64,000 nt of DNA from Alphaproteobacteria bacterium. Its GTDB lineage: Bacteria > Pseudomonadota > Alphaproteobacteria > JABAAW01 > JAHZMA01. Of the stretch, positions 13,338 to 49,822 are shown piece by piece. The notes under the pieces are model-generated. The model saw only the letters and a list, made by a program, of their open reading frames with translations. It made no database searches and was not told the origin of the DNA. The stretch covers positions 1-64,000 of the forward strand of contig JAHZMA010000126.1 in NCBI GenBank assembly GCA_022599575.1, written 5' to 3'. The translations under genes and the position numbers were made by a program. Numbering within the stretch: position 1 is the first letter of the stretch; each line of letters opens with the position of its first letter.

Positions 13338-13354
13338 AGTAGAAGGAGACAGTG

Positions 13355-14239: not shown

Positions 14240-14353
14240 GAAGCTAGCGATTGATATTGCCTGAAAATATTGCCTGATAGTGATAGATTGGGCTTGATTC
14301 TAACATGCCATTATTATATTGTTTTGCTGTTAATTATTTTTTTAGAGGTTGTT

Positions 14354-14485
14354 ATGGATAAAATTGATTTTCAAAAAGCACCAAAGCATCATTTAGATAC
14401 ATGGCGCAGATTCACCATCGTTTGTGTTGTTACAGTCATATCGATTGGCGCATTATTAGGGCTCATGGCATTATTTTTAACGTAA
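14354..14485 (+). CDS. Small single-TM protein, possible aa3-type cytochrome oxidase subunit IV-like
   Basis: MDKIDFQKAPKHHLDTWRRFTIVCVVTVISIGALLGLMALFLT; size and layout resemble COX4_pro_2-type proteins. Family assignment tentative. Confidence 0.45.
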   Translation: MDKIDFQKAPKHHLDTWRRFTIVCVVTVISIGALLGLMALFLT

Positions 14486-14625
14486 AATGCCTTATAACCA
14501 ATAATTTGGCGAATAATCATATAACATAATTTTGATTATTTAAAATATTTCAATAAATAAATGTATATTTTTCAATGCTTTGCAAAAAATTTGCATGTTT
14601 GATGTTATTTTAATGAAAATAACGC

Positions 14626-14655
14626 TTGCATTACATGGCGATTTATTGCTATAAT
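14626..14655 (+). promoter_or_regulatory. Sigma70-like promoter for flagellin 1: TTGCAT-N18-TATAAT
   Basis: Boxes 14626-14631 and 14650-14655. Confidence 0.65.
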
Positions 14656-14661
14656 GATGTT

Positions 14662-14754
14662 GTTCTTGGGGCAGAAGCGTCAAGACGTTAAACTCGCACA
14701 GAAAGTGCATATATTAACTTGCAGAATGCAAGCTTTAACAACTCTAGAACGGAG
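14662..14754 (+). promoter_or_regulatory. Structured flagellin 5' leader: stem I with GCAGAAGC loop, stem II CTTGCA-GAA-TGCAAG, then TCTAGAACGGAG
   Basis: Stem I 14662-14686; stem II 14718-14732; TCTAGAACGGAG 14743-14754. Confidence 0.65.
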
Positions 14755-14765
14755 GAAATTGAATC

Positions 14766-15677
14766 ATGTCAAGTGATATTACTTTGAGTTCAGCTCAAAG
14801 ATCTACCCTTGTTTCATTGAAACAAACAAGCAAATTATCAGATAGAACACAAGTGCGTTTAGCAACTGGTAACAGAATTAATGATGTTACTGATGGCGCT
14901 GAGGGGTTTTTCTCGGCACGTGCATTGGATAATCGAGCAGAAATTTTACTAGAAAGGCGCGGTGGTATCGATCAAGGTTTGTCGACATTACAGGCGACTT
15001 TAGACGGTATTGATGCGCTTGATGAATTATTAGGTCAGCTACGCGGTTTGGTGCGTCAGGCGCGCTCGCAAAGTGCTGTAGAGCGTCAGGAAACCACACG
15101 TTCCTATGAAAATGTGGTAGAACAATTTAGGTTGATATTGAACGATACCACCTATCAAGGTGTTAATTTATTAAACAATACCCAAACATCGCTTAGTATT
15201 GAATTTTCAGACCGTGACGATTCCGATATTGATATTAACGGGGTTAACATTTTAGCGAGTATAGCTAGCGATGGCGGTATTTTCAATACTGGATTACTTT
15301 CTAACATTAGAAATATTAACACTGGCTTTCCTGCTACCCCGCCTAATCAGGGTTTGAGTCAAGGTTTCTCGGTATTGAGTAACGCCAATAGCTTGCTTGC
15401 TGTTGATGAATTAGAGCGCGTTTTATCAGACGCACAAGAAAGGCTTGAAACGCGTGCCAATTCGCTTGGTAATAATGTGGCGATTTTGCAAACAAGGATT
15501 GATTTTACCGATTCAGTATCAACCGAATTAATTGCTGGTGCCGATAAAATTACCACAGCCGACCTCAATGAAGAAGCTGCCAACTATACTGCGATTGGTA
15601 CGCAATATCAAATTGGGGTGCAATCATTAGCAACATCAGCTCAGCGTTTACAGGCTCTTTTACAAGTTATTCGGTAA
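14766..15677 (+). CDS. Flagellin (paralog 1)
   Basis: MSSDITLSSAQRSTLVSLKQT..RTQVRLATGNRINDVTDGAEGFFSAR and EEAANYTAIGTQYQIGVQSLA; paralogous to the next two flagellins. Confidence 0.9.
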   Translation: MSSDITLSSAQRSTLVSLKQTSKLSDRTQVRLATGNRINDVTDGAEGFFSARALDNRAEILLERRGGIDQGLSTLQATLDGIDALDELLGQLRGLVRQARSQSAVERQETTRSYENVVEQFRLILNDTTYQGVNLLNNTQTSLSIEFSDRDDSDIDINGVNILASIASDGGIFNTGLLSNIRNINTGFPATPPNQGLSQGFSVLSNANSLLAVDELERVLSDAQERLETRANSLGNNVAILQTRIDFTDSVSTELIAGADKITTADLNEEAANYTAIGTQYQIGVQSLATSAQRLQALLQVIR

Positions 15678-15698
15678 TTATTAAAAATAATTGACACT

Positions 15699-15725
15699 AT
15701 TTTGTAAAGCTAAATTTTACAAAAT
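15699..15725. terminator. Stem-loop ATTTTGTAAA-GCTAAAT-TTTACAAAAT after flagellin 1
   Basis: Perfect 10-bp inverted repeat, 7-nt loop; no clear U-tract. Confidence 0.5.
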
Positions 15726-15871
15726 ATTTACGGACGCGACAAAGCAAAAATATATTTGTGTTGCACCGATAAAAGGCTATTGCATGACAATGTCAGTCGC
15801 AATCGCAATATTAATTGATTGAGTAGAGCATAAGTAAACGCTCAGTTGGATGGTTCTTAATGGAGGAAAAA

Positions 15872-16432
15872 ATGACAAAATATAGTTTCAACAACGCGAT
15901 GGATTTGAAAACAGAAAATAAGCGCGCCTTATTAACGCTGCGTTCAAAAGAAACATTGCACCAGATTAGTAATAAACCAATTATTAATGAGGGAATAGAT
16001 TATACTCCCCCAAAATATAAAAATAAGGAAGCGACCTTATTGAAAAATCAGCTGAATGATTGCCGCGATACATTGGTAGCGTGGCAAAAGGGAAGCAAAA
16101 CAAAAAATGTTGGCAAAGATGCACAAAAGGCACTGACATTATTAGATAATGTGCTGAAGCAGATGGCGGGTGCTAATATTATTAAGGAAGATTTTAGCAT
16201 TAATCATCGCATGCGTGCTTTTGGTGGCAAGGTTAAAGCATCGATTCGCGCCATCATCAGCCATGAAACAGACTTGTGCGCCCCCCAAAAAGATTATAAT
16301 GCAAAAAACTATAATGCACAAAATTATATGCAATCTATTTTAAATGTTGATTTTTCGCACATCAAAAGATTTGAGAAACAGCGCCAATGCAATACTGCAA
16401 AGCACCAGCTGATTATTGAAACAGCGGCATAG
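15872..16432 (+). CDS. Hypothetical protein (~186 aa) inserted in flagellin cluster
   Basis: Start at 15872 supported by upstream GGAGG; no recognised domain; followed by a strong terminator. Confidence 0.75.
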   Translation: MTKYSFNNAMDLKTENKRALLTLRSKETLHQISNKPIINEGIDYTPPKYKNKEATLLKNQLNDCRDTLVAWQKGSKTKNVGKDAQKALTLLDNVLKQMAGANIIKEDFSINHRMRAFGGKVKASIRAIISHETDLCAPQKDYNAKNYNAQNYMQSILNVDFSHIKRFEKQRQCNTAKHQLIIETAA

Positions 16433-16474
16433 CATTGTTTTTCATTTAACGGTTTCGTTTGTCTATACTTATCG

Positions 16475-16503
16475 GGCGTGTTTTTTTAACACGCCTTTTT
16501 TCT
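16475..16503 (+). terminator. Rho-independent terminator GGCGTGTT-TTTTT-AACACGCC-TTTTTT
   Basis: Perfect 8-bp stem followed by a T-tract. Confidence 0.9.
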
Positions 16504-16565
16504 TTAATTTCAGTAGGTTAACATTGTATCAATATATTATATGACGAAAAAACTTAAAATAATAC

Positions 16566-16594
16566 TTGCTTCCTAATGCGTTACGCGCTATAAT
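16566..16594 (+). promoter_or_regulatory. Sigma70-like promoter for flagellin 2: TTGCTT-N17-TATAAT
   Basis: Boxes 16566-16571 and 16589-16594. Confidence 0.65.
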
Positions 16595-16598
16595 AGCT

Positions 16599-16675
16599 GT
16601 GTTAGAGAAGCAGAAGCATCCCTCTAACACAGAAAACTAATACTTCAAGAATTGAAGTGCATATCTAGAATGGAG
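16599..16675 (+). promoter_or_regulatory. Structured flagellin 5' leader: stem I GTGTTAGAG..CTCTAACAC with GCAGAAGC loop, stem II ACTTCAA-GAA-TTGAAGT, then TCTAGAATGGAG
   Basis: Stem I 16599-16630; stem II 16642-16658; TCTAGAATGGAG 16664-16675. Confidence 0.7.
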
Positions 16676-16683
16676 ACCATATC

Positions 16684-17610
16684 ATGTCAAATGATATTAC
16701 TTTGAGTTCTGCTCAACGGCAGACGCTATTATCTTTACAAACAATTACCAATCTTTCTGACCGTACCCAGATACGTTTAGCGACAGGTCGTAAAATTAAC
16801 GACGTAACTGACGGGCCTGAAGACTATTTCGCAGCACGCACATTAGAAAAACGTGCAGGGCTTCTTAATGGACGTCGCGATGAAATTGATCAGGGCATTT
16901 CCACCATCCAAGCAGCATTAGAAGGTATTGATGCATTAGATGAATTTTTAGGGCAGCTGCGCGGCTTAACGCGGCAAGCACGTTCGCAAACAGAAGAAGA
17001 ACGTGCAGAAACAACCAGATCCTATAATAGTGTGGTAGCGCAATTTCAAAATTTGCTTGAAGATACGTCTTATCAAGGCTTGAATTTACTTAATAATGTC
17101 ACCGCTGATTTAACAGTTAAATTTTCTGAAGAAGAAGATTCATTATTGGTGATTGATAGCGTTAATATTCTTGCGACTGCTGCTGGTACTGGCGGTGTTT
17201 TTGGTGGTAGACCTTTCATAAATAATAGTTCTGGTAGTGTGCGCGGTATTGCTGGCACAATAAATGGCCTTAATGCTGGTGTTGGTTTAAGTTCAGGCTT
17301 TTCAGTATTGAGCAATGGCACTAATTTACAATCATTGAATACGCTTGATGCGCGCCTATCAGATGCACAAGATAGGCTTGAAAGCCGTGCCAATGTGCTA
17401 GGCAATCATGTTGCAGTTTTGCAAACGCGCTTAAATTACACAGATAATTTGATATCGAATCATATTACTGGTTCCGATAAAATTAAAAATGCCGACCTTA
17501 ATGAAGAGGCCGCTAACTTAACTGCCACTGGCACACAATATCAAATTGGTGTGCAAGCGCTAGGTGTTGCTGGGCAGAGGGTGCAATCATTGTTACAAGT
17601 GATACGGTAA
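16684..17610 (+). CDS. Flagellin (paralog 2)
   Basis: MSNDITLSSAQRQTLLSLQTITNLSDRTQIRLATGRKINDVTDGPEDYFAARTL; flagellin D0/D1 at both ends. Confidence 0.92.
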   Translation: MSNDITLSSAQRQTLLSLQTITNLSDRTQIRLATGRKINDVTDGPEDYFAARTLEKRAGLLNGRRDEIDQGISTIQAALEGIDALDEFLGQLRGLTRQARSQTEEERAETTRSYNSVVAQFQNLLEDTSYQGLNLLNNVTADLTVKFSEEEDSLLVIDSVNILATAAGTGGVFGGRPFINNSSGSVRGIAGTINGLNAGVGLSSGFSVLSNGTNLQSLNTLDARLSDAQDRLESRANVLGNHVAVLQTRLNYTDNLISNHITGSDKIKNADLNEEAANLTATGTQYQIGVQALGVAGQRVQSLLQVIR

Positions 17611-17712
17611 TTTTTTAGAATAATTTTTTTGATATATTCACTCAATTGGGCAAGGTTATTGCAATGGTCTATTATCATTATAATGGCTTTGCCCGAATTT
17701 AAGATTTGCCAA

Positions 17713-17740
17713 TAAATTGCTGATGGTAAATTGCTGATAA
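17713..17740. repeat. 14-bp x2 tandem duplication TAAATTGCTGAT(GG/AA)
   Basis: Read directly, intergenic. Confidence 0.9.
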
Positions 17741-17950
17741 GCGAATCATCATAGAATCGGTTGCGAATCACTTCAGTGAAAATATTACTGATTCGATAAA
17801 ATTTCACACAAAAAATAAAAAAAATTATTTTTTGTCGCGCGTATTTTTATATTTTAACGCCAATTTTTTATCGCATCAATTTATATAAATATTTTCTTAA
17901 TCTTTTGTATTTTATAGATATTTTTAAGATTTTATTTTGATATATACATC

Positions 17951-17980
17951 TAAAGTTTGATTTTTTTGGGTCAAACTTTA
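17951..17980. other. Perfect 10-bp inverted repeat TAAAGTTTGA-N10-TCAAACTTTA between flagellins 2 and 3
   Basis: Read directly. Confidence 0.9.
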
Positions 17981-18013
17981 ATGCTGTTGCTGTATAAGCG
18001 ACGCATTTTTTGC

Positions 18014-18255
18014 TTGCATTCATTCTTTTTACGATTTAACATGAAAGAGCCTTAAGGAAAAATTCCTAAGGTCAATCTAGACAGCTAAAAGCGGTCGGTT
18101 TAAGCAGAATGCTTTTTATGATGCCATTAAGGCGTTTTATAATGTTTTTTCTTTACCTGTTGTTTTTGGCATCTGCTTAAGACGGTAGATTGTTATTTTG
18201 CTGAATGTAAAATATCGTCTGGGTTGTTATCATATAAATATGTTCTAGAATGGAG
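18014..18255 (+). promoter_or_regulatory. Candidate promoter (TTGCAT-N17-TAACAT) and long structured leader for flagellin 3
   Basis: -35 at 18014, -10 at 18037; hairpin CCTTAAGGAAAAATTCCTAAGG 18050-18071; AAGCA-GAA-TGCTT 18102-18114; TCTAGAATGGAG 18244-18255. Confidence 0.5.
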
Positions 18256-18263
18256 ACATAGAC

Positions 18264-19199
18264 ATGGCAAACGATATTACTTTGAGTGCAACTCAAAGAC
18301 AAACTCTTATATCCTTAAAACGGACAAGTGATCTTTCTGATCGTACACAGGTTAGATTGGCAACTGGTCGTGAGATCAACGGTGTGACTGATGGTGCAGA
18401 AGATTTCTTCGCAGCACGGACATTGCAAAGACGTGCTGGTATTTTGGCACAACGCAATGAGCAAGTTGATCAGGGTATTTCTACCATCCAAGCAGCTTTG
18501 GAAGGTATTGATGCGCTTGATGAATTTTTATCACAGCTTCGTGGTTTAACGCGTCAAGCACGTTCGCAAACAGCCGAAGAACGTGTAGAAACAACAAGAT
18601 CCTATGATAGTGTGGTGGCGCAATTTCAAAATTTGCTTGAAGATAGTTCTTATCAAGGTTTGAATTTACTTAACAATGCAAATGCTAATTTAACAGTAAG
18701 GTTTTCTGAAGATACAGACTCAGAACTCGACATCGATGGCGTTAATATTCTTGCGACTACTGGTGCCGTTGGTGCTGCAGGTAGTATTTTTGCGGGTAGA
18801 GCTTTCGTAAATAATAGTTCTGGTGGTGTGCGCGGTATTGCTGGCACAGCAAATGGCCTTAATACTGGTGTTGGTTTAAGTTCAGGCTTTTCAGTATTGA
18901 GCAATGGCACTAATTTACAATCATTGAATACGCTTGATGCACGTTTATCAGATGCACAAGATAGGCTTGAAAGCCGTGCAAATGTGTTGGCAAATAATGT
19001 GGCAATTTTGCAAACGCGTTTGGAATATGGTGAAAATTTAATCAGTAACCATGTGTCAGGTGCGGATAAAATTGTCAATGCTGACCTTAACGAAGAAGCT
19101 GCTAACTTGACTGCCACTGGCACACGATACCAAATTGGCGTTCAGTCATTAGGTGTTGCTGGTCAACGGGTTCAATCATTGTTACAACTTATTCGTTAA
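18264..19199 (+). CDS. Flagellin (paralog 3)
   Basis: MANDITLSATQRQTLISLKRTSDLSDRTQVRLATGREINGVTDGAEDFFAARTL; strongly similar to paralog 2. Confidence 0.92.
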   Translation: MANDITLSATQRQTLISLKRTSDLSDRTQVRLATGREINGVTDGAEDFFAARTLQRRAGILAQRNEQVDQGISTIQAALEGIDALDEFLSQLRGLTRQARSQTAEERVETTRSYDSVVAQFQNLLEDSSYQGLNLLNNANANLTVRFSEDTDSELDIDGVNILATTGAVGAAGSIFAGRAFVNNSSGGVRGIAGTANGLNTGVGLSSGFSVLSNGTNLQSLNTLDARLSDAQDRLESRANVLANNVAILQTRLEYGENLISNHVSGADKIVNADLNEEAANLTATGTRYQIGVQSLGVAGQRVQSLLQLIR

Positions 19200-36309: not shown

Positions 36310-37089
36310 ATGACCTCACAGCTGACTGCAAACAAAATCGATAGTCTTTTATCTGGACGCGTTAAAATCGCGCAAGCCAAAGATTATAAGGCAACAATCG
36401 ATTCGGTGTTGCTGGCTGATTTTGTGCTGCGCCATTATAATGATAATGGTAATAGCAAGCGTGGGCATAGAAATAAACAACCATCTGCTATTGCTGAATT
36501 AGGTGTTGGCACAGGGGCAGTGATGCTGTGTGTGTTGCATTATTTTGCGCGTTATAATATTGGTGTTGATTATGATGGCTATGATTGCAATCAGCATTTT
36601 TTAGATTTGGCGCAAGAATCGTTACGGCTGAATGGGTATGATGCTCCCAATATTATGTTGCATCATTGCGATATTCGCGATATTAGTAACCGCAATTGTT
36701 ACGATGCGGTGGTGATGAATCCACCATTCTTAGCATTTGATGAGCAAGCGGGCATGGAACGTGCCAATATGCGTAGCCGTGCGCTTTATGAAGGCGAGGT
36801 AAAACTTGCTGATTGGCTTAACATGGCGGGCAAATTATTAAATCAGCAGGGGTGGTTGTTCATGGTGCATCAAGCCGAAAGGCTGAGTGAGATTATTGTG
36901 CATATGCAAAAATTCGGGGCGATAACAATCATGCCGATTCACAGTTATCATGAAAAGGCGGCGAAACGAATATTGCTTGCGGCACAGTTGGGCAGTAAGG
37001 CGGGGGTTCGCATCATGCCAAGTTTGGTGATGCATGATGCAGGTGGTGATTATACCGCGCAGGCACAGAAAATTTTACAAGGGGAATGA
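36310..37089 (+). CDS. TrmN6-like N6-adenine methyltransferase
   Basis: AELGVGTGAVMLCVLHY SAM motif and VVMNPPFLA catalytic motif. Confidence 0.8.
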   Translation: MTSQLTANKIDSLLSGRVKIAQAKDYKATIDSVLLADFVLRHYNDNGNSKRGHRNKQPSAIAELGVGTGAVMLCVLHYFARYNIGVDYDGYDCNQHFLDLAQESLRLNGYDAPNIMLHHCDIRDISNRNCYDAVVMNPPFLAFDEQAGMERANMRSRALYEGEVKLADWLNMAGKLLNQQGWLFMVHQAERLSEIIVHMQKFGAITIMPIHSYHEKAAKRILLAAQLGSKAGVRIMPSLVMHDAGGDYTAQAQKILQGE

Positions 37090-37910
37090 TGATGATGCGT
37101 TTATTATTATCGACCTTATGCCTATTACTGCTACCAATGGCGGCATTTGCAAAAACTGAAATTACCACAAAAGAGCAGATTACCCCATTGCTAGCATCAG
37201 ATAACAGCAATATAGCCGTGATTGATTACAGCCTATATCAACAATTTTTGCAGAAAAATCGAAAAAACAATCTGCCAAGTGGTGTTGCGGGTTTTGATTA
37301 TGCCAATATCAGCGCAAGCGATAAAGCATTGCTGAAACAGCATTTTAACAAAATGCAGGCGGTGAATATCACGCAATATAATGATGATGAGCAACTCGCC
37401 TTTTGGTTGAATATGTATAATGTAATTGTGCTAGATATGATATTGGAATTTCACCCGATTAAAGCATTTGCACTGATTGAGGTTAAATCAGAACAGCCCG
37501 TATGGAAAATGCAACGGGCAGAAATGATGGGTTTACCTTTGAGTCTGGATAATATTCAGCATGATATTTTGCGTGAAAAATTTAACGATTGGCGCATTTT
37601 GAATGGGTTGAATATTGCAGCAGTATCATCAGGTCCGTGGCAAGAAAAGCCTTTTATCGGCAAAGATATTACCGCACAGCTTGATGCCCATACCAAGCAA
37701 TTATTCACCTATGAATTAACCGCAAATATGCCTGAAAAAAATATATTGCGTTTGATAGCTGGCTTGCAATGGTATGCGACTGATTTTATTGATGCAGGAA
37801 TCACGCTTGATGATATATTGCAACAATATTTGCCTGATAATTTGAAACAGCAATTAAGCAATGTGCAAGAGATTGAATATTTTTACGATTGGCGCTTGAA
37901 TCAACCATAA
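37086..37910 (+). CDS. Secreted DUF547 protein (copy 1)
   Basis: AFWLNMYNVIVLDMILEFHPI..ILNGLNIAAVSSGPW typical of DUF547; signal peptide. Confidence 0.82.
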   Translation: MMMMRLLLSTLCLLLLPMAAFAKTEITTKEQITPLLASDNSNIAVIDYSLYQQFLQKNRKNNLPSGVAGFDYANISASDKALLKQHFNKMQAVNITQYNDDEQLAFWLNMYNVIVLDMILEFHPIKAFALIEVKSEQPVWKMQRAEMMGLPLSLDNIQHDILREKFNDWRILNGLNIAAVSSGPWQEKPFIGKDITAQLDAHTKQLFTYELTANMPEKNILRLIAGLQWYATDFIDAGITLDDILQQYLPDNLKQQLSNVQEIEYFYDWRLNQP

Positions 37911-37948
37911 AATCATGCTAATTTATAGTGAGTGATAGAGGGCGTTTT

Positions 37949-38746
37949 ATGATGTTTAACATGATGATGAAATATGTGATTGTTATTTGGTGTGTCTTTG
38001 CCCCTGTAACCATACAGGCGCAAGAAGCAATGAAATTTTTTATGCGCGATGGCCCCAAAACTTCTGCGATTGATTATAGCAATTACGAAGAATTTTTAGA
38101 AAAATATATAACAACATCAGCAAAAGCAAATGGTGTCAGCTATTTTGACTATAAAAATATTAGTGCCGATGGACATCAATTGCTAAAAAATCAGCTTCGC
38201 TTGATGGAAGGTGTTTTTATCACCAATTATAGAAAACCAATTCAGCTAGGCTATTGGCTTAATCTTTATAATATCATCGTGCTTGATGAAGTGTTAACGA
38301 ATTATCCAATTGATAATATTCGTGATATTAAAAATATTTTTACTGATAAAAAGGTAACAATTCAGAATTTACCATTAAGTTTAGATGATATTGAACATAA
38401 AATTATTCGTCCTACTTTTAAGGATTATCGAATTCATGCCGCATTAAATGTCGCTAGCATCTCCTCAGGAAGATTAACGGTTAAAGCCTACGGTTATAAT
38501 ATCAACCAAGAGTTGCAAGACGCGATGGTTGCGTGGCTGGCGCGTTCTGATATATTCCGAATTGAAGGCAATAATATTCACCTTGTGCGCGCGTTTGATT
38601 GGTATACAGAAGATTTCGGCAATAGTGAAAGCGCGATGCTTTTTACTATCTCTCAGCATTTAAATCATAGTGAAAATCTACGGTTACGGAGAACCAGTAA
38701 TAGAAAAATTATTTACGATTATAATTGGGACTTAAACGATAAATAA
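37949..38746 (+). CDS. Secreted DUF547 protein (copy 2)
   Basis: Tandem paralog: GYWLNLYNIIVLDEVLTNYPI..HAALNVASISSGRL. ORF opens at GTG 37928. Confidence 0.82.
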   Translation: MMFNMMMKYVIVIWCVFAPVTIQAQEAMKFFMRDGPKTSAIDYSNYEEFLEKYITTSAKANGVSYFDYKNISADGHQLLKNQLRLMEGVFITNYRKPIQLGYWLNLYNIIVLDEVLTNYPIDNIRDIKNIFTDKKVTIQNLPLSLDDIEHKIIRPTFKDYRIHAALNVASISSGRLTVKAYGYNINQELQDAMVAWLARSDIFRIEGNNIHLVRAFDWYTEDFGNSESAMLFTISQHLNHSENLRLRRTSNRKIIYDYNWDLNDK

Positions 38747-38754
38747 TACAGCAT

Positions 38755-41337
38755 CTAATCTGTAGCTGATATAATCCCTAATTTTTCTAATCTTTCATTA
38801 ACTGTTAATTCTGCCTCAAAATAAAATCTTGTCTTCTTATCAATCAAATAGCTGCTAATGGTAGGCTTTTGCATCAAAATTTTAGGATTTTTGATATATT
38901 TGCTGAGTATCTCGGTATTTAACCAACCGAAACCATAGACGCTTTTACTATGTGCAGCATAGGCAAGCGAGCTATGTAGGAAAGGACGCTGATAATAAAG
39001 CGTGCTAATATCACAAAAATCTTGCTGCTTTAACACTTGCCATTTTATATGTTTTTCTTCTAAAAAACCAATATGGTCAATCTTCCCTACGCCTATTAAT
39101 TTCATATGTTGAAATAATGGATATTGCTTTACGTAACGTTGCTTTTCTAATAATGGCTTTTGCCAAAAATCTTGCTTGTCATAATCAATATGATTCTGCA
39201 TGCCTAAACCATAAAGCGTTGCTATTCCTTGCATTTCTTGCCAAATAGGGAAGCCCGCTTCTAACCGTAAGGCTTGTAAAGCATAAAAACCGATGGGCTT
39301 GATATCAGCATCATTAGCCTTCGCCCGAATGGCTTGATACAGCTTATTGATATGTTGGTTTGGGGCATAAATTTCATAACCTTTTTCGCCAGTAATTGAA
39401 AATTTTACAATTACTGTTTCAATGCCTTCAATCACAGTTTTGGCGATGCCGAAAAATGGCAGAGTTTCATCAGAAAATTGTGAGAATAATGTTTGCGCTT
39501 GCAATCCTGCAATTGCAATACCGCCATAGGTAGCGGTGATATTATTGATAGTAACATCCATCTTTGCTTGCTTTTGCAAATAAAGCAGATAAGCATGGTC
39601 AATATGATGCCTATCACCATCGCCAATCAGCCAATAAAGATTATCATCTAAACAGCCTAATGTGAGCATGGTATGAGGTTTACCTTGCTTGTTGATAATT
39701 GGCGCTACTTTCATCTCGCCCTGATTGGGCTGTTTGCCTGCACTGATGAATGAGACAAATTTTTCAGCATCTTTGCCGCTGATTTCAAATTTGGCATGAT
39801 GCCCTATATCGTAATAGCCACCAATGGTCCGCATTTGGATTTGTTCTTGATTGATAACAGCAATATTATCTTCGGGATTATGAGAAGCAGCCTGTTTATC
39901 CGTAAAAAATTGTGGGGTTGCAAATTGTTTTCCTGCCATCAAAGCGGCATTATCGCTGATAAATTCTTGTTGCAAAGGGTGGGGTGGCACTTTATGCTGG
40001 TCAGGAAATGCACAATTATTATCATCATGGCGATAGAAAGGATTTTTTTCAATATTTACCTTTATCCAATCCTGATCCTTATCACTAAAACGGACAGGCG
40101 AAAATTCAGTAATATCAACTGTTTCGGTGCGGTGGTCACCATCGGCAATCAGTGATGCCAGCCCAATTCTTACCAGAATTTCTTGCGAGAAACCTTCGGT
40201 AAAACCGCAGGCAAGCCATAGATTATCGTCTATTTCGCCTATTAATGGTTTGCCATCGGGCGATACCAGAATATCGCTCGGGATATAATGGGTGATTCTA
40301 TCTTTCAATTCGGGCATAAGCGCAAAAATACGCGCAAAATCTTCTTGTAATTCAGGAAAATCGTGCTGATTACAAGCAATTTTTTCACCTGCCACTATTT
40401 CATTTCCCTTAAAGTCAACAACCGTGGCACGCATTTTTTCGCGCGTAACATCATCAGTCACAACATCGTCACTGATGATAGTTCGATTTTCGGCAAATAA
40501 ATTCAACACCAGATATTTATCATGCACATAGAGATAAAAATCATCGCTAATGCCAAGATAGTTGGATGGTAAATTACCTTTATTAAAGAAATCTTCAGCA
40601 TTTTCTAGCAAGAAACAATAATGTTGTACAGAGCGCAAAGGCAACTGATGCTGGGTCATTGCGGCAATATGATTGGCGGCATTGCCAGCCGCATTCACCA
40701 CATGGTTGGCAATGATTTTGCCTTTTGTTGTATCAATTTGCCATGTGCCGTCTTCATTTTTGCTGATAGCACGCACAGCGCATTGTTCTTGATATTCTCC
40801 ACCAGTTACTTTAGCCGCTTCGGCCAATGTTTGTAATGTGGCAAGTGGCTTTAGGGTAAAGCTTTCCATGATTAGCTGATAAAGATAGCCTTCAGGAATG
40901 TTATTAATCAGTGGAATCGCATGTTCGTCCAGATGCTGATTATCAATGAAATGATTGTATGTGGTAATGGTTTCAAATTGTCTATGAAAATTATGCATCA
41001 TTTGTTGCAATTCTAACATATGTTCATTGCGCGCATGGGCAATAAAGCCAGTATCCGTCCATGTATCTTTTTCATGTGTATAAAAGAACGTTTTGCCAGA
41101 TACCCGTTCAATATGCTGTAAGAATAATGTTTGATAGGATTGCGTGTGCGATGCATCAAGATTTTCTATGCGGCGCGCTGGTAATTGCAATGCGCGTGGC
41201 GGTAGTGACGAAAGCCCCGCACCTAATGTGCCAGCCTCTACCAGCACGGTTTCACATTTTAACGCAGAAAGCCCAAATAATAAAGAGCAACCAATAATCC
41301 CGCCACCAATAACAACAACATCTGCTTTAGATTTCAT
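38755..41337 (-). CDS. Dimethylglycine/sarcosine dehydrogenase-like FAD oxidoreductase fused to GcvT-like domain
   Basis: N-terminal VVVIGGGIIGCSLLFGLS DAO fold; C-terminal GcvT-like ITGEKGYEIYAP..YALQALRLEAGFPIW. Confidence 0.85.
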   Translation of the reverse strand: MKSKADVVVIGGGIIGCSLLFGLSALKCETVLVEAGTLGAGLSSLPPRALQLPARRIENLDASHTQSYQTLFLQHIERVSGKTFFYTHEKDTWTDTGFIAHARNEHMLELQQMMHNFHRQFETITTYNHFIDNQHLDEHAIPLINNIPEGYLYQLIMESFTLKPLATLQTLAEAAKVTGGEYQEQCAVRAISKNEDGTWQIDTTKGKIIANHVVNAAGNAANHIAAMTQHQLPLRSVQHYCFLLENAEDFFNKGNLPSNYLGISDDFYLYVHDKYLVLNLFAENRTIISDDVVTDDVTREKMRATVVDFKGNEIVAGEKIACNQHDFPELQEDFARIFALMPELKDRITHYIPSDILVSPDGKPLIGEIDDNLWLACGFTEGFSQEILVRIGLASLIADGDHRTETVDITEFSPVRFSDKDQDWIKVNIEKNPFYRHDDNNCAFPDQHKVPPHPLQQEFISDNAALMAGKQFATPQFFTDKQAASHNPEDNIAVINQEQIQMRTIGGYYDIGHHAKFEISGKDAEKFVSFISAGKQPNQGEMKVAPIINKQGKPHTMLTLGCLDDNLYWLIGDGDRHHIDHAYLLYLQKQAKMDVTINNITATYGGIAIAGLQAQTLFSQFSDETLPFFGIAKTVIEGIETVIVKFSITGEKGYEIYAPNQHINKLYQAIRAKANDADIKPIGFYALQALRLEAGFPIWQEMQGIATLYGLGMQNHIDYDKQDFWQKPLLEKQRYVKQYPLFQHMKLIGVGKIDHIGFLEEKHIKWQVLKQQDFCDISTLYYQRPFLHSSLAYAAHSKSVYGFGWLNTEILSKYIKNPKILMQKPTISSYLIDKKTRFYFEAELTVNERLEKLGIISATD

Positions 41338-41434: not shown

Positions 41435-43744
41435 TTATGCATCTACTGGCTTTGCCGATGGCTGAAACAGATTAAGCATTGCGGGCAGAAGCATTGTTGA
41501 CGAAAACCATGCCAGAAACATCGCTTGCGTGGCGAAGATGCCAAAACGGGTGAGAATCACTAAATCTGAGCTGGCAAATATACCAATGCCCAACATGAAT
41601 AATAAAGATGTTTTTAACACGGGTTTTCCCGGTATCATCATCGCCGATTCAATCGCCAAATTATGATTGCCCGTTTGCTTTAATTTGTTGCTATAGCAAT
41701 GCATGATATGGATATTATCATCAACGCTGATGCCCATCGCCACCGCCGCAATAATCACAGTGGCAAAATCAAAGGGCAGACCAAACAGGCTGACCGTGCC
41801 AAGAGTCATCACCACTGGCAGGGTGGTTGCCACAATGCCAATCAGCGATACCGAAAAGCCGAATTGCACCAATAGCACGAAAAAAATGAGCAAGAACGTT
41901 ATAGCGATTGAGCTTAATTGGGTTTTCACCACATAATCGCTTAATGTTTGGAAAAACGCGCTATGCCCTGTAATTACAGGGGCGGGCAGTTGATAATCAG
42001 GCAGATTTTTATTGAGTTCGGCAAGGAACACTGCTAATTTTGTGGAATTCAAATTCGGCAGTTGCACTTTCACTCTTATCCGTTCAGCAGTAAAATCCAG
42101 ATAGGGCGCAAGCACATCTTGCTTATCGGCAGAGCGTGAAAAATCAAGAAATAATAATTCTTGATTTAATTCCTCATCATTATCAGGTTCAGCACTTTCA
42201 TCTTCTGAAAATTTTTCATGCACTTCGCGTACAGGGTCAAGATAGGATTGCACCCCCTTTACCAATGGCAAACCAAGAAGCAGTTTTTCTAACCTTAAAG
42301 TTTCAGCAAAAGGCTGATAGCTACGAAAAAATTCTTCTTCATGTTCGGTGAAAATAATATCAACCGAGCCTGAGCCACCTAATTCATCATCAATCAGATT
42401 GAAAGCACGGTAAATTTCGCTATCAGGTTTGAAAAACACATCTAGCAGATTTGTTTCGGTGCGCGCCCAACCCAAAGCTGTGCCAGTGATAATCAGCACT
42501 AAAATGCTAACACTGGTGATGGTTTTACTGCGCGCATGAACCAGCTTTAATAATTTCTGCAGTATCAAGGCAATGATAAAATCATTACGCGCACCTAGTT
42601 TTGATGTTGGCTTTTGCCAAGAAACATACCATAAGCCACTTGCCATCGCTAATAGCATCAGCACATAAGATACCATTACCGCAACCGCCGCATCACGCCC
42701 AAATTGCTGTAGCGGCAAAATATCGCTCAGCGCGAACGACCCAAAACCAATCGCGGTGGTAAGCGATGTATTCAGGCAAGGACGCCAGCTATAGCCCATC
42801 ACGCGTTTTAATAATTCGCCCGTATTGGCAAAACTTTCGGATTCCCGCAAATCATCCCAATAGCCCATAATATGCAGAGAATCGGCAAGCGCAATCACCA
42901 CAATCATCACGGGCAAAGTGAGCGAGATAATCGTTAAATCATGCCCAAATAACACCACAATGCTGAGTGATGCCAACACACATATGCCAGCTGTGCCAAA
43001 TAGCAAACCTACCCGCCAGAATTGCCCAAACATCAGCAGTAAGAAGCTCGATAGAATAAGGGCAGTCATCAATAGCAAACGCCCCAATTCGCTATGGGTG
43101 CTGCTATTCAGCTGTGCTTTGAGGCGTAAATTGCCCGCAACTGAAATTTTGCCTAAATCTTGATATTCTGCTAGCAGCTGATAAATATTACCCAGCGTTT
43201 CCTCGCGCAATTCCGCTTGTTTGACACTATCCACTAGCACCGAGAATGTGATAATGCTGTAATCTTTTGAGATGAGCAGACCATAATAGGGGCTATCGGT
43301 TAAGATGCGCCGATATTCCTGATAATCTTTAATCGCATCTTTTTCTAAAGCGCGCCTATAGCTTTGAATTTGTAGCGTATCACCTTCTTCTATAATCACG
43401 GTTGCTTCAAGTGGTGAGTTAATTTCTTTAACATTTTCAATGTCAATCAGCCTATCTGAAAATTCGCTAAAACTATCAATCATTGGCTTTGTGAAAAAAT
43501 TACTGCCATCTTGCAAGGTAAAGGCAATCAGTAATTGTTCGGCATTTTGTTCAAATTCTCTGGTTAGCAAATCGCTTGCTTGCTGTTCGGGATTATCTTC
43601 GGGCAACCAATTATCGTTGTTATATTTTATGCTACTCGCAATCATCACCAATGTAACCGCTAGTGCGCCCCATAATAACGGTACTAAATACTTAAATGTT
43701 TTCTTCATCACATACCTTCTATGAACAAACTCTAAAAACGCCAA
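41435..43744 (-). CDS. RND-superfamily (MMPL-type) exporter
   Basis: Two sets of TM helices separated by large periplasmic loops; ALADSLHIMGYW and AMGISVDDNIHIMHCY RND motifs. Confidence 0.88.
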   Translation of the reverse strand: MAFLEFVHRRYVMKKTFKYLVPLLWGALAVTLVMIASSIKYNNDNWLPEDNPEQQASDLLTREFEQNAEQLLIAFTLQDGSNFFTKPMIDSFSEFSDRLIDIENVKEINSPLEATVIIEEGDTLQIQSYRRALEKDAIKDYQEYRRILTDSPYYGLLISKDYSIITFSVLVDSVKQAELREETLGNIYQLLAEYQDLGKISVAGNLRLKAQLNSSTHSELGRLLLMTALILSSFLLLMFGQFWRVGLLFGTAGICVLASLSIVVLFGHDLTIISLTLPVMIVVIALADSLHIMGYWDDLRESESFANTGELLKRVMGYSWRPCLNTSLTTAIGFGSFALSDILPLQQFGRDAAVAVMVSYVLMLLAMASGLWYVSWQKPTSKLGARNDFIIALILQKLLKLVHARSKTITSVSILVLIITGTALGWARTETNLLDVFFKPDSEIYRAFNLIDDELGGSGSVDIIFTEHEEEFFRSYQPFAETLRLEKLLLGLPLVKGVQSYLDPVREVHEKFSEDESAEPDNDEELNQELLFLDFSRSADKQDVLAPYLDFTAERIRVKVQLPNLNSTKLAVFLAELNKNLPDYQLPAPVITGHSAFFQTLSDYVVKTQLSSIAITFLLIFFVLLVQFGFSVSLIGIVATTLPVVMTLGTVSLFGLPFDFATVIIAAVAMGISVDDNIHIMHCYSNKLKQTGNHNLAIESAMMIPGKPVLKTSLLFMLGIGIFASSDLVILTRFGIFATQAMFLAWFSSTMLLPAMLNLFQPSAKPVDA

Positions 43745-45405
43745 CCTAAACTAAATTGCGTGGTTGTGCTACCATTACCATCACCTTCAAGTTTATAATA
43801 GCGGTCGTTACTTTGCCCATTGCTTAAATCAACTTGTCCAATAGAGAGCGCAACATTCAGGCTTTCGGTGATATTATAGCGATAAATAAGCGCAATGCCA
43901 CCAGAACCACCAACAGCACCCAGATTCAATCCATAGCGATGTTGTTTTTCATCGCCTGAAGAGCGGAATAAGGACACAAGTGGTAAAGTGGTGATAGGGT
44001 CGGTTGTGATGCCTGTTTCTGCTTCAAGTGATTCATATAAACGGACAATTTCTTTATCGCTGGCATTTTTTGGTTTTGGTAATGTGCGTGATAAAAGCAT
44101 AACGCTACCATACCACGCGCCTTGTTCGTAGAGAAAGCCTAATGCTTGAATGTCGCTGGTGGCATGATAGAGCGAGGTGCCTTGCAACAATCCCGAACGG
44201 GCATTGATAGCATTTTCAAATGCCTCACCTTGTGTGAATTCACCATTTTTGCTAAGGTTAATTGTGCCGTTAAAGCCTAACCCTTGAATTGAATCAATTT
44301 TGGCATATTCATAGCGCCATGTCCACGCGCCAACTGGCACTGAAACTTCTAACCCAAACAATGTGCCTTCGGGGTAATAGAAAAAACTTTGCCTTGCATC
44401 CTTAAATTCACTGGAAATGATTTCAGGTCTTTGCTGATTAATCGGATTGATATTTCCTTGCACGCGCCCGACTGGTGCGCGTAAAATAGGTTCGCTGCCG
44501 TTAATCCCTTGATGATAAGTAATACCCAACGTTCCCCAATCGGGATAAAATAACAAACGCAATGCTGATTGCGTGGTATCTTGATTCAGTTCACTGCCTT
44601 GATTATTTAATAAAATATCTTCAACATTGCTTGCATTAAAATCGCCATTAACAAAATCATCATCATTTATGTCAACAGGCCCTAGCCAGCGGGAAAAAGA
44701 TGTATCAACAACAGGGTCGGTGCGTAAATCATTCATCGCATAAAGCTGCACTTCCATTTTTGGATTAGGAAACAAAGAAAGCTTTAGCTGGTCTTGCGCG
44801 TAAATAAAATCTAATTTGCTAGGAATCAGCGTGGTAATGGTGGTGTTAACGGGCAACATGGCGGCACTAGGCGAGTAGAGTTCAAACTGCCCCCACGCAT
44901 TGCGTAACCTGCCAACCGATATTGTGCCGAAACTGCTGATGCTATGTTGCACAAAGCCTTCTTTTAGCAAAAATTGTCTATTTTCAATCTCGATGGTGCG
45001 GGTTGTTGGTAAGCTTAAATTAGAATCTTGCACCACAATCTCATCTAATCTTTGCTTAAGCGTTAAGGTGGATTGTGTCGCGCCATAATTCAAGTAAAGC
45101 CGCCCTTTTTGAAGTGGCACATCCACCCCTAGATTGATGATTGCGCCGATGCGTTCGGCAGAAATATTCTGGGCATTATTATAGCCGACTTCACCGATAA
45201 AATAGTCACGCAAATCAAAATCACTTTTGGTGTCTTCCTCATCAACCAATAAAGATTCTTCATCAAACGAGAAATCTTGCTCAAAACTTTGGGCATGAAT
45301 GTTAGAGGGGCTGTTGATGATAATCATTGTCCATAAAACCATGCCACACATAAAATATTTATTCACATAATACATTTTTTTGTCCCTAATTTTCGCAACC
45401 ATCAA
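43732..45405 (-). CDS. Predicted outer-membrane beta-barrel protein, paralog A (DUF1302-like)
   Basis: Signal peptide; GRLRNAWGQFELYSPSAAMLPVN motif; C-terminal GWRF. Confidence 0.7.
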   Translation of the reverse strand: MMVAKIRDKKMYYVNKYFMCGMVLWTMIIINSPSNIHAQSFEQDFSFDEESLLVDEEDTKSDFDLRDYFIGEVGYNNAQNISAERIGAIINLGVDVPLQKGRLYLNYGATQSTLTLKQRLDEIVVQDSNLSLPTTRTIEIENRQFLLKEGFVQHSISSFGTISVGRLRNAWGQFELYSPSAAMLPVNTTITTLIPSKLDFIYAQDQLKLSLFPNPKMEVQLYAMNDLRTDPVVDTSFSRWLGPVDINDDDFVNGDFNASNVEDILLNNQGSELNQDTTQSALRLLFYPDWGTLGITYHQGINGSEPILRAPVGRVQGNINPINQQRPEIISSEFKDARQSFFYYPEGTLFGLEVSVPVGAWTWRYEYAKIDSIQGLGFNGTINLSKNGEFTQGEAFENAINARSGLLQGTSLYHATSDIQALGFLYEQGAWYGSVMLLSRTLPKPKNASDKEIVRLYESLEAETGITTDPITTLPLVSLFRSSGDEKQHRYGLNLGAVGGSGGIALIYRYNITESLNVALSIGQVDLSNGQSNDRYYKLEGDGNGSTTTQFSLGWRF

Positions 45406-45439
45406 TAGATTAGCATTATTTTAATATTGGGGGCAAGCA

Positions 45440-47035
45440 TTAAAATTGCCACCTAACGCCAAACTGCAATGTCGGGTTTTCAGGGTCTTTGGTGCTGTAA
45501 CCTGTATCTTCTTCAAATACAGAAATATCAACCCAGCCAATAGAAGCGCCAATCGATAAATCATCATTCACGCGGTAATTATAAATCGCGCCAATGCCAA
45601 ATCCTACACCAACAACGCCTAGCGCGCCACCATAATAATGCCTATCATCATCACCAGCGGTGCGGTAGGCTGATATTAATGGAAAATAATCAAAATCTTG
45701 GTCATTAGGAAATTCGGATTCATTTTCTAATTCTATATAGCTTGCGCGAATCTCTCTGCCAGCATCAGTGGTTGGCTCTATACCACCAAACCAAATAATA
45801 TCTAGCGAAATAGTCCAGACGGGGGCATAATAGGTAATACCAGCTGTGCTGATGGTAAGGGTGGCAGGGAATAATGGTGTGTTTTCTAATTGCGAACCGC
45901 GACTTTTATCGCCAATGGCATTAAAAAAATTTGTTATATTATCGTCACTAAAAACCTCATCTTCTTCAGTTACTAGCCCGATATTGCCTAAAAAATCAGG
46001 TGTTGCTAATGTTTCAAGCGTGGCAGTTTCGGCACGTAAGGTCACATTTTTTAGCGATACCGCTAATTCTATGGCATTTAATGTAGATTTTGGAAAGAAT
46101 AGGTAAGTTTCTTGGTCATTATCATAAACCGAAGAAATGATATTAGTGCCTTCATTTGCCTCCTCACCATCTTCATCATTATAATTACCTTTATCAACAG
46201 GTGCGCGTAAAGTTGCGACGCTTGAAACGCCTTCTTGCCGCGTAAAGCCTAACACCCCCCAGCTAGGATAAAACAGCAAGCGCACCGCTTTTTGAGTGGT
46301 GTTTTGTTTTTGCGCGTCACCTAATGGTAAGGTTTTACCTGCATCTGCTAATTCACCAAATTCTGGCGTTAAGATATCGGACTCAGACCTATCGGCGACT
46401 TTATCGGTACGGATATTCTCCATATCATAAAATTGAATCTCACTTCTGCTGGTCGGAAAAATAGCAATCTTAACTTGGTCTTGGGCATGCAGTAAATCCA
46501 CCTTGCTAGGAATGAACGAGATAAGATTGGCGGTGAAAGGTTGCATCAGGGTTGCGGGCGAGAATAGCTCAAACTGTCCCCATGCGTTGCGCTGTCTGCC
46601 AGCAGTTACTGTAATTGCACTGCCTAAATTGAGTTGCACAAAGGCTTCGCGCCAATCGCGGTCGGTTTCGCTGACTTTAATTTCAACTTCGCGCGGACGG
46701 TCATCGCGCACCTGTAAATCTTCAGCTAGTTCTTGGGTAACTTTCACCTGATAGCTAACACCGCCATAATTGGCATAGAATCTGCCCCAATCCCATTGAA
46801 TATCAGCACCCACATCTATAAATTCGCTTTGCCGTTGGGCAAAACCGCCCCATGCACCCACAAAACCAATTTCGCCAAACAGATAATCGGTAAGTGGCTT
46901 TTTATTTTCTTCTGGCTCCGATAGGTTGGTAAGAATATCGGGTTCAAATGAAAAATTTTCAAAATCATATTCTTGTGCATAAATAATAGGGCTGAATAAA
47001 AAACATGCAACATAAAAATATGAAAATTGTCGCAC
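45440..47035 (-). CDS. Predicted outer-membrane beta-barrel protein, paralog B (DUF1302-like)
   Basis: Signal peptide; GRQRNAWGQFELFSPATLMQPF motif; C-terminal VRWQF. Confidence 0.7.
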   Translation of the reverse strand: MRQFSYFYVACFLFSPIIYAQEYDFENFSFEPDILTNLSEPEENKKPLTDYLFGEIGFVGAWGGFAQRQSEFIDVGADIQWDWGRFYANYGGVSYQVKVTQELAEDLQVRDDRPREVEIKVSETDRDWREAFVQLNLGSAITVTAGRQRNAWGQFELFSPATLMQPFTANLISFIPSKVDLLHAQDQVKIAIFPTSRSEIQFYDMENIRTDKVADRSESDILTPEFGELADAGKTLPLGDAQKQNTTQKAVRLLFYPSWGVLGFTRQEGVSSVATLRAPVDKGNYNDEDGEEANEGTNIISSVYDNDQETYLFFPKSTLNAIELAVSLKNVTLRAETATLETLATPDFLGNIGLVTEEDEVFSDDNITNFFNAIGDKSRGSQLENTPLFPATLTISTAGITYYAPVWTISLDIIWFGGIEPTTDAGREIRASYIELENESEFPNDQDFDYFPLISAYRTAGDDDRHYYGGALGVVGVGFGIGAIYNYRVNDDLSIGASIGWVDISVFEEDTGYSTKDPENPTLQFGVRWQF

Positions 47036-48706
47036 TTAGAATCTCCAAGTTAAGCTTAATTGTGTGGTTAAGCCACCAAATTCATTTTTATTCTCATAAG
47101 CAGAATCCGAATTGCTATTGGTATTTAATTGTGCGAAGCCCAGTGAGGTATTAATGCTAATATCTTCAGTAATTTTATAACCATAGATACCGCCTATGCC
47201 AAAACCAACGCCAATAGCACCTAATGCGAAGCCATAACGATGCTGGTCTTCATCGCCACGGCTGCGAAAGCCGTTCACCAAAGGCACGGCGCCGAAAGAT
47301 GAGCCATCCTCATTATTAGCCGTTTCAGCCTCTAGCTGTTGATAAAGTGCTAACATTTGTTTACCACGTGCGGTTGTTGGTTCAGGTGTACCAAGCATAA
47401 TGGCAGTCACATTAAATGTCCATTCATTTCCTTGATAAATAAAGCCAAATGCCGACGTATTTACGCGTGACTTAAATAAAGCCGTGCCAGTGATGGGGTC
47501 GTTTGGATCGCCATCGCCCGCGATGGTAAGAAAATTATTAACAAGGTCAGAGCTAAAACCGTTTTCGCCATCATTTGCGATAAGATAAATATTGCCACCA
47601 AATTGGTCAACGCCACTATAAGAATCAACAAACGAGGTTTCTAATCGCCAGACAAATCTACCAACAGGCACAGAAATTTCTAACGCGGTATTGGTGCCTT
47701 CAGCATAATAAAGATAAGAATTTTTTTCATCAATATAAGCAGAGGCAACAACAGTATCAACAGAGTTACGTTCGGGGTTGCTATCGCCAGCAGCGATTGG
47801 CGTGCGTAATAAAGGCACAAACGCATTATAGCCTTTATGGTAGGTGAAGCCAATCGTGCCCCAATCGGGATAAAATACCAGACGGAGTGCTGATTGATTT
47901 TTTTCATATGTTTCCTTATAACCAAAATCAATCTCTTCATTTTCACCGATCGAGACTAATTTGCCACCTTGTATACCATTTTCTAATTTATTAAAGGGCT
48001 GTAACCATAACAGCGCACTTTCATCGCCACTATTATCGGTTGCTAAACCATCAATGCTGTAAAGCCCAATTTCCACTTTACTGGTCGGGAATATTTTGAC
48101 CACTGCCTGATTTTGCGCGTAAAGTAAATCTAACTTATTGGGAATGATTGAGGTGAAATTGGCATTGAATGGCAACATGATAGTGGCAGGTGAAAGCAAT
48201 TCAAACTGGCCCCACGGGTTGCGCTGTCTGCCCGCTTCGAATGTAACGTAAGAACCGAGATTTAATTGCACAAAAGCCTCGCGCAAACCAACATCTTTGG
48301 TATTCGTTGAAATCGTGCGTTCCAGTGGTAAATCTGATGTGTCTTGGTTAGGGTCATTCTGTATACTTTCACGTAATTCTTGCGTGATTTTCAAATCAAA
48401 TTCAACACCACCATAAGTTGCATAGACGCGTCCCCAATCCCAAGGTATATCAACCCCTACATTATAGATGGTAGAGCGGCGCGAAACGCCAGCATTACCA
48501 CCACTAATCAAGCCAAACTCACCAGTGATATAATCGGTAAAATTAAGACCACTGCTACTGCTGCTATCACCTTCATCGCTGATTAATAAATCATCTTCAT
48601 TAAATGTTTGTGCGAAAGCATGATTGCTAATTAAGCTTGCGCTTGCGAACATTACTGAAGCAAAAAGTGTCACAGAAAATGGTTTTTTGTTATAACCTGC
48701 AGACAT
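47036..48706 (-). CDS. Predicted outer-membrane beta-barrel protein, paralog C (DUF1302-like)
   Basis: Signal peptide; GRQRNPWGQFELLSPATIMLPF motif; C-terminal LTWRF. Confidence 0.7.
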   Translation of the reverse strand: MSAGYNKKPFSVTLFASVMFASASLISNHAFAQTFNEDDLLISDEGDSSSSSGLNFTDYITGEFGLISGGNAGVSRRSTIYNVGVDIPWDWGRVYATYGGVEFDLKITQELRESIQNDPNQDTSDLPLERTISTNTKDVGLREAFVQLNLGSYVTFEAGRQRNPWGQFELLSPATIMLPFNANFTSIIPNKLDLLYAQNQAVVKIFPTSKVEIGLYSIDGLATDNSGDESALLWLQPFNKLENGIQGGKLVSIGENEEIDFGYKETYEKNQSALRLVFYPDWGTIGFTYHKGYNAFVPLLRTPIAAGDSNPERNSVDTVVASAYIDEKNSYLYYAEGTNTALEISVPVGRFVWRLETSFVDSYSGVDQFGGNIYLIANDGENGFSSDLVNNFLTIAGDGDPNDPITGTALFKSRVNTSAFGFIYQGNEWTFNVTAIMLGTPEPTTARGKQMLALYQQLEAETANNEDGSSFGAVPLVNGFRSRGDEDQHRYGFALGAIGVGFGIGGIYGYKITEDISINTSLGFAQLNTNSNSDSAYENKNEFGGLTTQLSLTWRF

Positions 48707-48736
48707 GATATTTCTCCTAATTGAACAATGATAATA

Positions 48737-49516
48737 TTAACTTTTCTTCAATGCTTTGATGCTGACATCATTGGGATGAATTTTGATTGCCACCTTTGTT
48801 TCTTTACGTAACATATGGCTTTCACCGCCAGTGAGATGATTGGTCATCACAGCATTTTGTACCAAATACATACCTTTAATTTCTTGAATACCTTTATTGG
48901 CAAGGCTTTTGAATTTTTCGCCTTTTTTATTGAAAAATACAATATGTAATGGCACAAGATATTTTTTGGAAATCACCAAATCTAGGCGATTATAGGCTTC
49001 GGTTTTATCAACGGGTACAGATGAGATAAAATAATATTTTTCATCTTCTTTAATCAGCTTATGGGTGTCTTGGTCTAATGTGCGCCCTGCCACATCAGAA
49101 AATGAAAAGTCGGAACCCATAAATGAATCATCTTGTTCATCACTGCGTAATTGTTTTACCGAACGAAATGCAGGCAGATAAAGCCACTGATTTGCTTTGG
49201 TGGCTTGGTCTTCTTTTTCGGTTAAAAGCCCAGTGCCTTTTACCGATGCTGGCTTATAAAAATTGACTAAAGTATGGGTTGTGGTGTTTTGGTCAATTAA
49301 CTGTTTGGTTGAAAAATATCTTTTACGCTCTCTTTTCGATTTATCAATGATAATAAGCTCGACTTCGCTTTGTTGCGTGTTATGTTTGCGTCCTTGATCT
49401 TGCACCATTTTCATAATCTCACGACCATCAAGGGCATGGGCGATATTATTGAATAAAAAAACAAATGCGATAACAGAAAGCAAAGCAAATCTTGTAATTT
49501 TAATTGAATGTGACAT
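48737..49516 (-). CDS. LolA-like outer membrane lipoprotein-sorting family protein
   Basis: Signal peptide; ANQWLYLPAFRSVKQLRSDEQDDSFMGSDFSFSD, typical of the LolA-like (PF17131-type) family. Confidence 0.85.
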   Translation of the reverse strand: MSHSIKITRFALLSVIAFVFLFNNIAHALDGREIMKMVQDQGRKHNTQQSEVELIIIDKSKRERKRYFSTKQLIDQNTTTHTLVNFYKPASVKGTGLLTEKEDQATKANQWLYLPAFRSVKQLRSDEQDDSFMGSDFSFSDVAGRTLDQDTHKLIKEDEKYYFISSVPVDKTEAYNRLDLVISKKYLVPLHIVFFNKKGEKFKSLANKGIQEIKGMYLVQNAVMTNHLTGGESHMLRKETKVAIKIHPNDVSIKALKKS

Positions 49517-49704
49517 TGTAATATTCTCCAGAATACATATTTATGTTATAAAAAGTAAAATTTTGCAACTACTATTTAAGTTACTTACGTGCTTAATTAA
49601 CATATTATTAACATTTTGTCAAATAATAATTGTGTAAAAAATAATTAATTATTTTGAGGCGTGTCACAATAAATACACATCTTATAAATTATTTTGGCAG
49701 TGAT

Positions 49705-49720
49705 TTGGCATTGTTTTTGC
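49705..49720 (+). promoter_or_regulatory. Putative sigma54 (-24/-12) promoter upstream of MCP
   Basis: TTGGCATTGTTTTTGC: GG-N10-GC spacing, about 100 bp before the GTG start. Confidence 0.55.
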
Positions 49721-49822
49721 CTATCATGCTTTTGAATGTAATAAAAAATCTTGCATATTATGTTTGTGTTGTATAAAATGTTAATCTTGTTACTCAAGAA
49801 AAAAGTTAGTAGAGGTTATTAG

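Follow-up and report, generated by a model that had tools for sequence, protein, structure and literature searches.

Analysis of a 64,000-nucleotide stretch of an alphaproteobacterial genome (GenBank assembly GCA_022599575.1, contig JAHZMA010000126.1; hereafter, the window) revealed a predicted operon of five genes that encode a LolA-like periplasmic carrier, three diverged outer-membrane beta-barrels and a single RND/MMPL pump. The kit of pump, carrier and barrel is already known; the unusual feature is the multiplication of the barrels that share one pump and one carrier, and the open-access literature that was searched yielded no account of a pump with several diverged barrels. We put at about even the chance that the operon encodes a single trans-envelope system that exports a hydrophobic small molecule or a lipid. 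More tentatively, we propose a hub-and-spoke exporter, in which one pump and a soluble carrier serve several specialised exits, and evolution of the substrate range or the surface profile proceeds through repeated duplication of only the exit barrel. Cassettes of DUF1302, LolA_like and RND proteins are widespread and their mechanism is unproven; multiplication of only the barrel, at least three times independently, amounts to a natural experiment on its contribution; moreover, the paralogues allow mapping of the barrel-carrier contact, which should be shared, as against the determinants of surface or substrate specificity, which should be diverged.

Organization of the operon

The five minus-strand open reading frames (ORFs) delineated in the first-pass annotation were all recovered with the same boundaries (Table 1). 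In operon order, from the LolA-like gene to the pump, the gaps between them are 30, 0, 34 and -13 nt, with the GTG start of B2 directly following the stop codon of B1, and no convincing terminator was found between the five genes. The 13-bp overlap between B3 and the pump, noted in the first-pass annotation, holds for the ORFs as called but depends on a TTG start. The ATG at 43708, which is preceded by AGAAGG and is equivalent to the site where the relatives of the pump start, is more likely to be the actual start, about 23 nt after the B3 stop codon. Judging from the start context, B3 itself probably starts at the ATG at 45375. The promoter-like match upstream of the operon belongs to a class of matches that do not exceed the number expected by chance. 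The G+C content of the operon (41.3%) equals that of the window (41.7%), so that composition gives no sign of recent foreign origin.

Table 1. The predicted operon and its upstream region
Feature	Coordinates	Strand	Basis
LolA-like (PF17131) periplasmic carrier, 259 aa	48737..49516	-	Pfam score and PDB relatives
Barrel B1, 556 aa, predicted outer-membrane beta-barrel, DUF1302-like clade	47036..48706	-	AlphaFold2, Foldseek, motifs
Barrel B2, 531 aa, B1 paralogue	45440..47035	-	38% identity to B1, motifs, terminal WQF
Barrel B3, 557 aa as called	43732..45405	-	39% identity to B1, 33% to B2
RND/MMPL pump, HAE3/MmpL type	41435..43744	-	MMPL score, predicted fold, conserved residues
AT-rich divergent intergenic region, operon promoter likely inside	49517..49822	-	promoter-like match 49784-49757

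A DAO/GCV_T fusion gene (38755-41337, minus strand) lies 97 nt downstream of the pump gene on the same strand and has a good ribosome-binding site; no clear terminator was seen between the two genes. This gene is absent beside the pump in the relatives' loci that were read and, together with a chemoreceptor gene, is among the window neighbours that are not common to these loci. Further along, the window encodes a tandem pair of DUF547 signal-peptide proteins (37086-38746, plus strand) and, in the region 13352-19199 (plus strand), a run of at least three flagellin-like genes (14766, 16684 and 18264), each with a Flagellin_N match; two ORFs between or before these genes have no Pfam match.

The pump and the carrier

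The 769-aa pump belongs to the MMPL/RND superfamily (PF03176, 78.5 bits against a cut-off of 20.5). Its best NCBIfam match, of near full length, is the HAE3 family TIGR00921, but the score of 123 bits misses the cut-off of 351.9, and we accordingly term the protein HAE3/MmpL-like only. The fold of the predicted model (pLDDT 73, pTM 0.66) is nearest to MmpL4, MmpL5 and MmpL3, followed by NPC1L1, Dispatched, Patched and HpnN, and no AcrB-type entries are present among the best 50 fold matches. The pump retains acidic residues in membrane helices of both halves (ADxLH and VDDxIH) that are conserved among its relatives and, by analogy with other RND pumps, suggest proton coupling. A search of the genome identified the operon pump as the only one of its type, along with one more, weak match (E 3.8e-5 over 120 positions).

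Two other assignments of the pump were considered and rejected. A tripartite HAE1 efflux pump is incompatible with an MmpL-like protein of this size encoded in an operon that lacks a membrane-fusion or TolC-like protein. As for hopanoid transport, the score against the HpnN model (45 bits, cut-off 751.85) is far below that required for membership, and hopanoid cargo is unlikely because a search of the genome for the squalene-hopene cyclase C-terminal domain gave no match.

The carrier is a member of the LolA_like family (PF17131, 142.3 bits, cut-off 30), with a partial match to DUF1329 (28.2 bits, cut-off 23.1) and a signal peptide that ends at about AHA. Its relatives in the PDB are 9tp6 (E 1.4e-25) and 3bk5 (E 2.2e-19; E 4e-83 in the profile comparison); for 9tp6, a recent LolA relative, no role was found in the literature searched.

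Three paralogous barrels

The paralogy of the three signal-peptide proteins, proposed in the first-pass annotation, is borne out by the highly significant matches to B2 (E 2.5e-108 and 7.2e-78); the pairwise identities are 38% (B1/B2), 39% (B1/B3) and 33% (B2/B3). Each of the motifs GRxRNxWGQFELxSP, FYPxWGxxGxT and GD(E/D)xxHxYGxxLGxxG, listed in that annotation, is present exactly once in all three proteins, and the C-termini SLTWRF, GVRWQF and SLGWRF are typical aromatic beta-signals. Structure prediction yielded a barrel rather than a non-barrel fold: the AlphaFold2 model of B1 contains about 18 strands and is of moderate confidence (pLDDT 66.8, pTM 0.70). All three proteins are therefore predicted to be outer-membrane beta-barrels with a beta-signal, B1 from its model, and B2 and B3 by homology. 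In a Foldseek search, the best match of the B1 model was AlgE (E 4e-10, TM 0.41/0.48), and OprD-type and general porins were also retrieved, with low TM scores.

None of the three barrels matches a Pfam family at the cut-off, PF06980 (DUF1302) included, and a barrel profile search against PDB sequences gave no match. A related barrel from another genome, the upstream copy of locus L019, does pass the PF06980 cut-off (25.5 against 23.2), and profile-profile comparison with four DUF1302-type proteins gave an alignment (90%, E 1.5e-6, 48 columns) that is confined to the GRxRxxWGxF region. Because of these two observations, we denote the barrels DUF1302-like; as judged by sequence comparison, they are a divergent clade and not members of PF06980, the identity to the true DUF1302 proteins compared being about 14%.

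On the B1 model, similarity among the three barrels is highest in strand 5, in the 163-196 link that carries WGQFELxSP, in strand 6, and in both the FYPxWG turn and the GDE..H.YG block. The least alike regions are the long links 220-269, 309-335, 366-409, 439-473 and 527-545, which are 4-17% identical across the trio, against 44% for the WGQF link. Given periplasmic termini, the diverged long links would be extracellular, an assignment that derives from one medium-confidence model; the conserved WGQF link, also on the outer side, is probably folded inward, into the lumen.

Conservation of the unit and repeated duplication of the barrel

In a class-wide sample of 385 genomes, full-length barrels were detected in five, the present one included. 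The first-pass annotation had called for a survey of the neighbourhood, and the arrangement turned out to be conserved: the LolA_like and pump genes adjoin the barrels in all five genomes and also in G404, which was added, along with G403 and G409, by a follow-up search of the order to which G331 belongs. The LolA-barrel-RND unit thus recurs in distant members of the class. In a phylum-level sample of 399 genomes, only two weak, short matches were found beyond the present genome. A distant spirochaete locus, identified in a LolA scan of genome contigs, combines LolA with a barely scoring neighbour and was left out.

The number of barrels per single pump varies from one (G331, G058) through two (G134, G404) and three (the window) to at least four (G235), so that 4 of the 6 units carry two or more barrels along with a single pump and carrier. 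The positions of the barrels vary as well. In G404 the order is LolA-B-RND-B', and in G235, relative to the direction of transcription, one barrel lies before the pump and three after it, with the final one running off the contig end; an apparent frameshift in one G235 barrel is a 16-N assembly gap and so does not mark that barrel as a pseudogene. The G403 locus is a fragment that looks broken at the pump and the barrel, possibly through a scaffold error, and was left out of the counts. In G409 (locus L095, 10382-13188), the pump is kept, the LolA-like gene is gone and a 69-aa barrel remnant is left, in the chromosomal location that the complete unit occupies in G404. ABC-F-like and dehydrogenase-like flanking genes (names read from the sequence) persist in G331, G404 and G409 while the barrels vary.

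In the barrel tree, the window trio forms one clade (support 100/99), G134 and G235 group with each other twice, once through their upstream and once through their downstream copies, and both G404 barrels join with that of G331. These groupings point to at least three separate duplications and, on the sequence evidence, imply that these occurred in the window lineage, in the common ancestor of G134 and G235, and in the G331/G404 lineage, with one copy later lost in G331. The pump tree places the window with G331 and G404, and pairs G134 with G235; in the carrier tree, all units form one clade within which the place of the window is not resolved. The three trees largely agree, and those of the pump and the barrel match on the main groups. 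The first-pass annotation had singled out three divergent barrels as unusual; possession of more than one barrel is indeed unusual and, as indicated by the barrel tree and the loci of the relatives, arose repeatedly. The three barrels may stand for substrate diversification or a heteromeric pore, the two options given in that annotation, or for surface variation.

A putative export route and the alternatives

A single route through the inner-membrane pump, periplasmic carrier and barrels was suggested in the first-pass annotation. The barrel fold, the conserved neighbourhood and the existence of similar sets that handle hydrophobic compounds (PMC6394551, PMC10866462) favor this suggestion; the idea is not new, such a route having been proposed already for both published systems. 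In the export route that we favor, the proton-driven RND pump would lift a hydrophobic molecule from the inner membrane and hand it over to the LolA-like protein, which would hold it in its hydrophobic cavity and cross the periplasm, a TolC-type duct being unlikely. The carrier would then dock on the periplasmic side of one of the three barrels, where the conserved WGQF loop, which probably folds into the lumen, may guide release to the surface. B1, B2 and B3 would be alternative exits with diverged outward-facing loops for the common pump and carrier. These steps draw on protein family, fold, gene linkage and the two published systems. Export is supported by the tight co-directional arrangement of the genes, LolA-barrel-RND adjacency, the concordant trees, the MmpL-like pump fold, the PF17131 carrier and the predicted barrel fold. 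Against it, the neighbouring genes give no clue to the substrate; furthermore, the pump may work partly alone, given that in G409 it persists although LolA is gone and just a remnant of a barrel is left.

One published counterpart is ameABCD of Castellaniella defragrans, a DUF1302, DUF1329 and HAE3 RND cassette, the deletion of which lowers monoterpene tolerance, reduces growth on monoterpene hydrocarbons and increases Nile Red accumulation (PMC6394551). Like the window operon, it combines in one cassette an outer-membrane barrel, a LolA-superfamily periplasmic protein and an RND pump, and its substrate is hydrophobic. AmeABCD differs in having one barrel instead of three, a 451-aa DUF1329 carrier instead of the 259-aa PF17131 protein, and an extra periplasmic protein, AmeC (COG4447). 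The lack of this second periplasmic protein in the window counts against the export reading: no AmeC-like YCF48/COG4447 protein is encoded in the operon, and the proxy PF14870 has no match in the genome. In Pseudomonas putida, where a barrel, a LolA-fold carrier and an RND pump have likewise been proposed to form one route, PP_0765 (DUF1302) and PP_0766 (DUF1329) are needed for the use of Tween20, and AlphaFold predicts contacts of the DUF1329 protein with both the barrel and the RND pump PP_2018/PP_2019 (PMC10866462). That system is split between two loci and has one barrel, whereas the window has one operon and three barrels.

Alternatively, the barrels might admit exogenous lipids, hydrocarbons or esters that the carrier and the pump then process or clear from the periplasm, the three barrels widening the range. 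Known RND pumps with this fold act as exporters or move lipids outwards, which counts against uptake, and no genes for hydrocarbon or lipid catabolism were seen directly beside the window operon. By analogy, the data on related systems would fit uptake as well as export: growth on Tween20 requires PP_0765/0766 (PMC10866462), and in Thalassolituus, n-C28 raises an MMPL + LolA-like protein 42-fold and is the only substrate on which a predicted porin is made (PMC6304351). In Aromatoleum, the DUF1302, DUF1329 and MMPL genes are located among fatty-acid-oxidation-type genes. On balance, we regard uptake as possible, albeit rather doubtful.

It also appears unlikely that the extra barrels serve primarily to vary the surface, as might help against phages or grazers, or to adjust dosage, rather than to broaden the substrate range, with one ancestral exit function and changing outer loops. 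The putative extracellular links are indeed the most diverged parts of the trio, and barrel number and position often change, including by loss. However, the pump and the carrier have remained single and in linkage, divergence in some of the core strands equals that in the loops, and loop variability is usual in any barrel family, with the topology here taken from one medium-confidence model. Because surface variation of the barrels is compatible with either export or uptake, our confidence in these readings overlaps.

That the barrels are ordinary porins with no tie to the lipid pump and carrier beyond a common operon, as the low-TM matches to AlgE, OprD-type and general porins might suggest, is quite improbable: linkage was observed in every sampled genome with a full-length barrel, Prevotella has the same three-part set, and a barrel-type ORF adjoins most of the LolA_like and RND pairs across the class. 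The outcome that the first-pass annotation had named as damaging to its proposal, ordinary porins unrelated to the pump, did not materialize. Lipoprotein sorting, suggested by the family name and the automatic annotation of PF17131, is barely credible, given that LolCDE-type ABC genes are absent here, the partner is an RND pump, and LolA-like genes beside FtsX-like permease-sized ORFs make up a different arrangement, found elsewhere (L084, L085). In both of these loci, the LolA_like gene precedes two ORFs of FtsX-like permease size and one of ATPase size (names read from the sequence).

Related cassettes in other bacteria

Under NCBI annotation, the three-part kit is present in Prevotella and Aromatoleum. 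In Prevotella nigrescens (NZ_CP082843), MMPL, LolA_like and DUF1302 genes lie side by side, and the carrier is of the PF17131 type (30% identical); this cassette differs from the window operon in its order (RND-LolA-barrel), in having one barrel and in adjoining ABC transporter genes. In Prevotella intermedia and Porphyromonas gingivalis, iron depletion elicits a strong response of operons that combine MMPL with outer membrane lipoprotein-sorting genes (PMC10434189); different clades therefore probably have different substrates.

Many genomes of the class encode an equivalent three-part cassette, RND - LolA_like - approximately 400-aa barrel (L072, L076-L083), the barrels of which were recognised only by size, signal peptide and terminal beta-signal. 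This common cassette differs from the window-type units in gene order and in the smaller barrel, which, wherever it was seen, is the only adjacent one; the pump and carrier trees set the two types apart as separate clades. G134 and G331 carry both types.

Further cases of a pump paired with a LolA-like protein are Thalassolituus TOL_3187 and the aryl polyene genes. In aryl polyene export, apeL (LolA-like) and apeM (RND) similarly provide a carrier and a pump for a lipid-like product; in contrast to the window operon, apeN (LolB-like) replaces the barrel and the biosynthesis genes are attached (PMC8253772). On a Sulfitobacter plasmid (L101, 1-5720), MMPL and LolA_like genes directly follow a type I polyketide synthase gene, which suggests a polyketide-derived lipid as the cargo at that locus.
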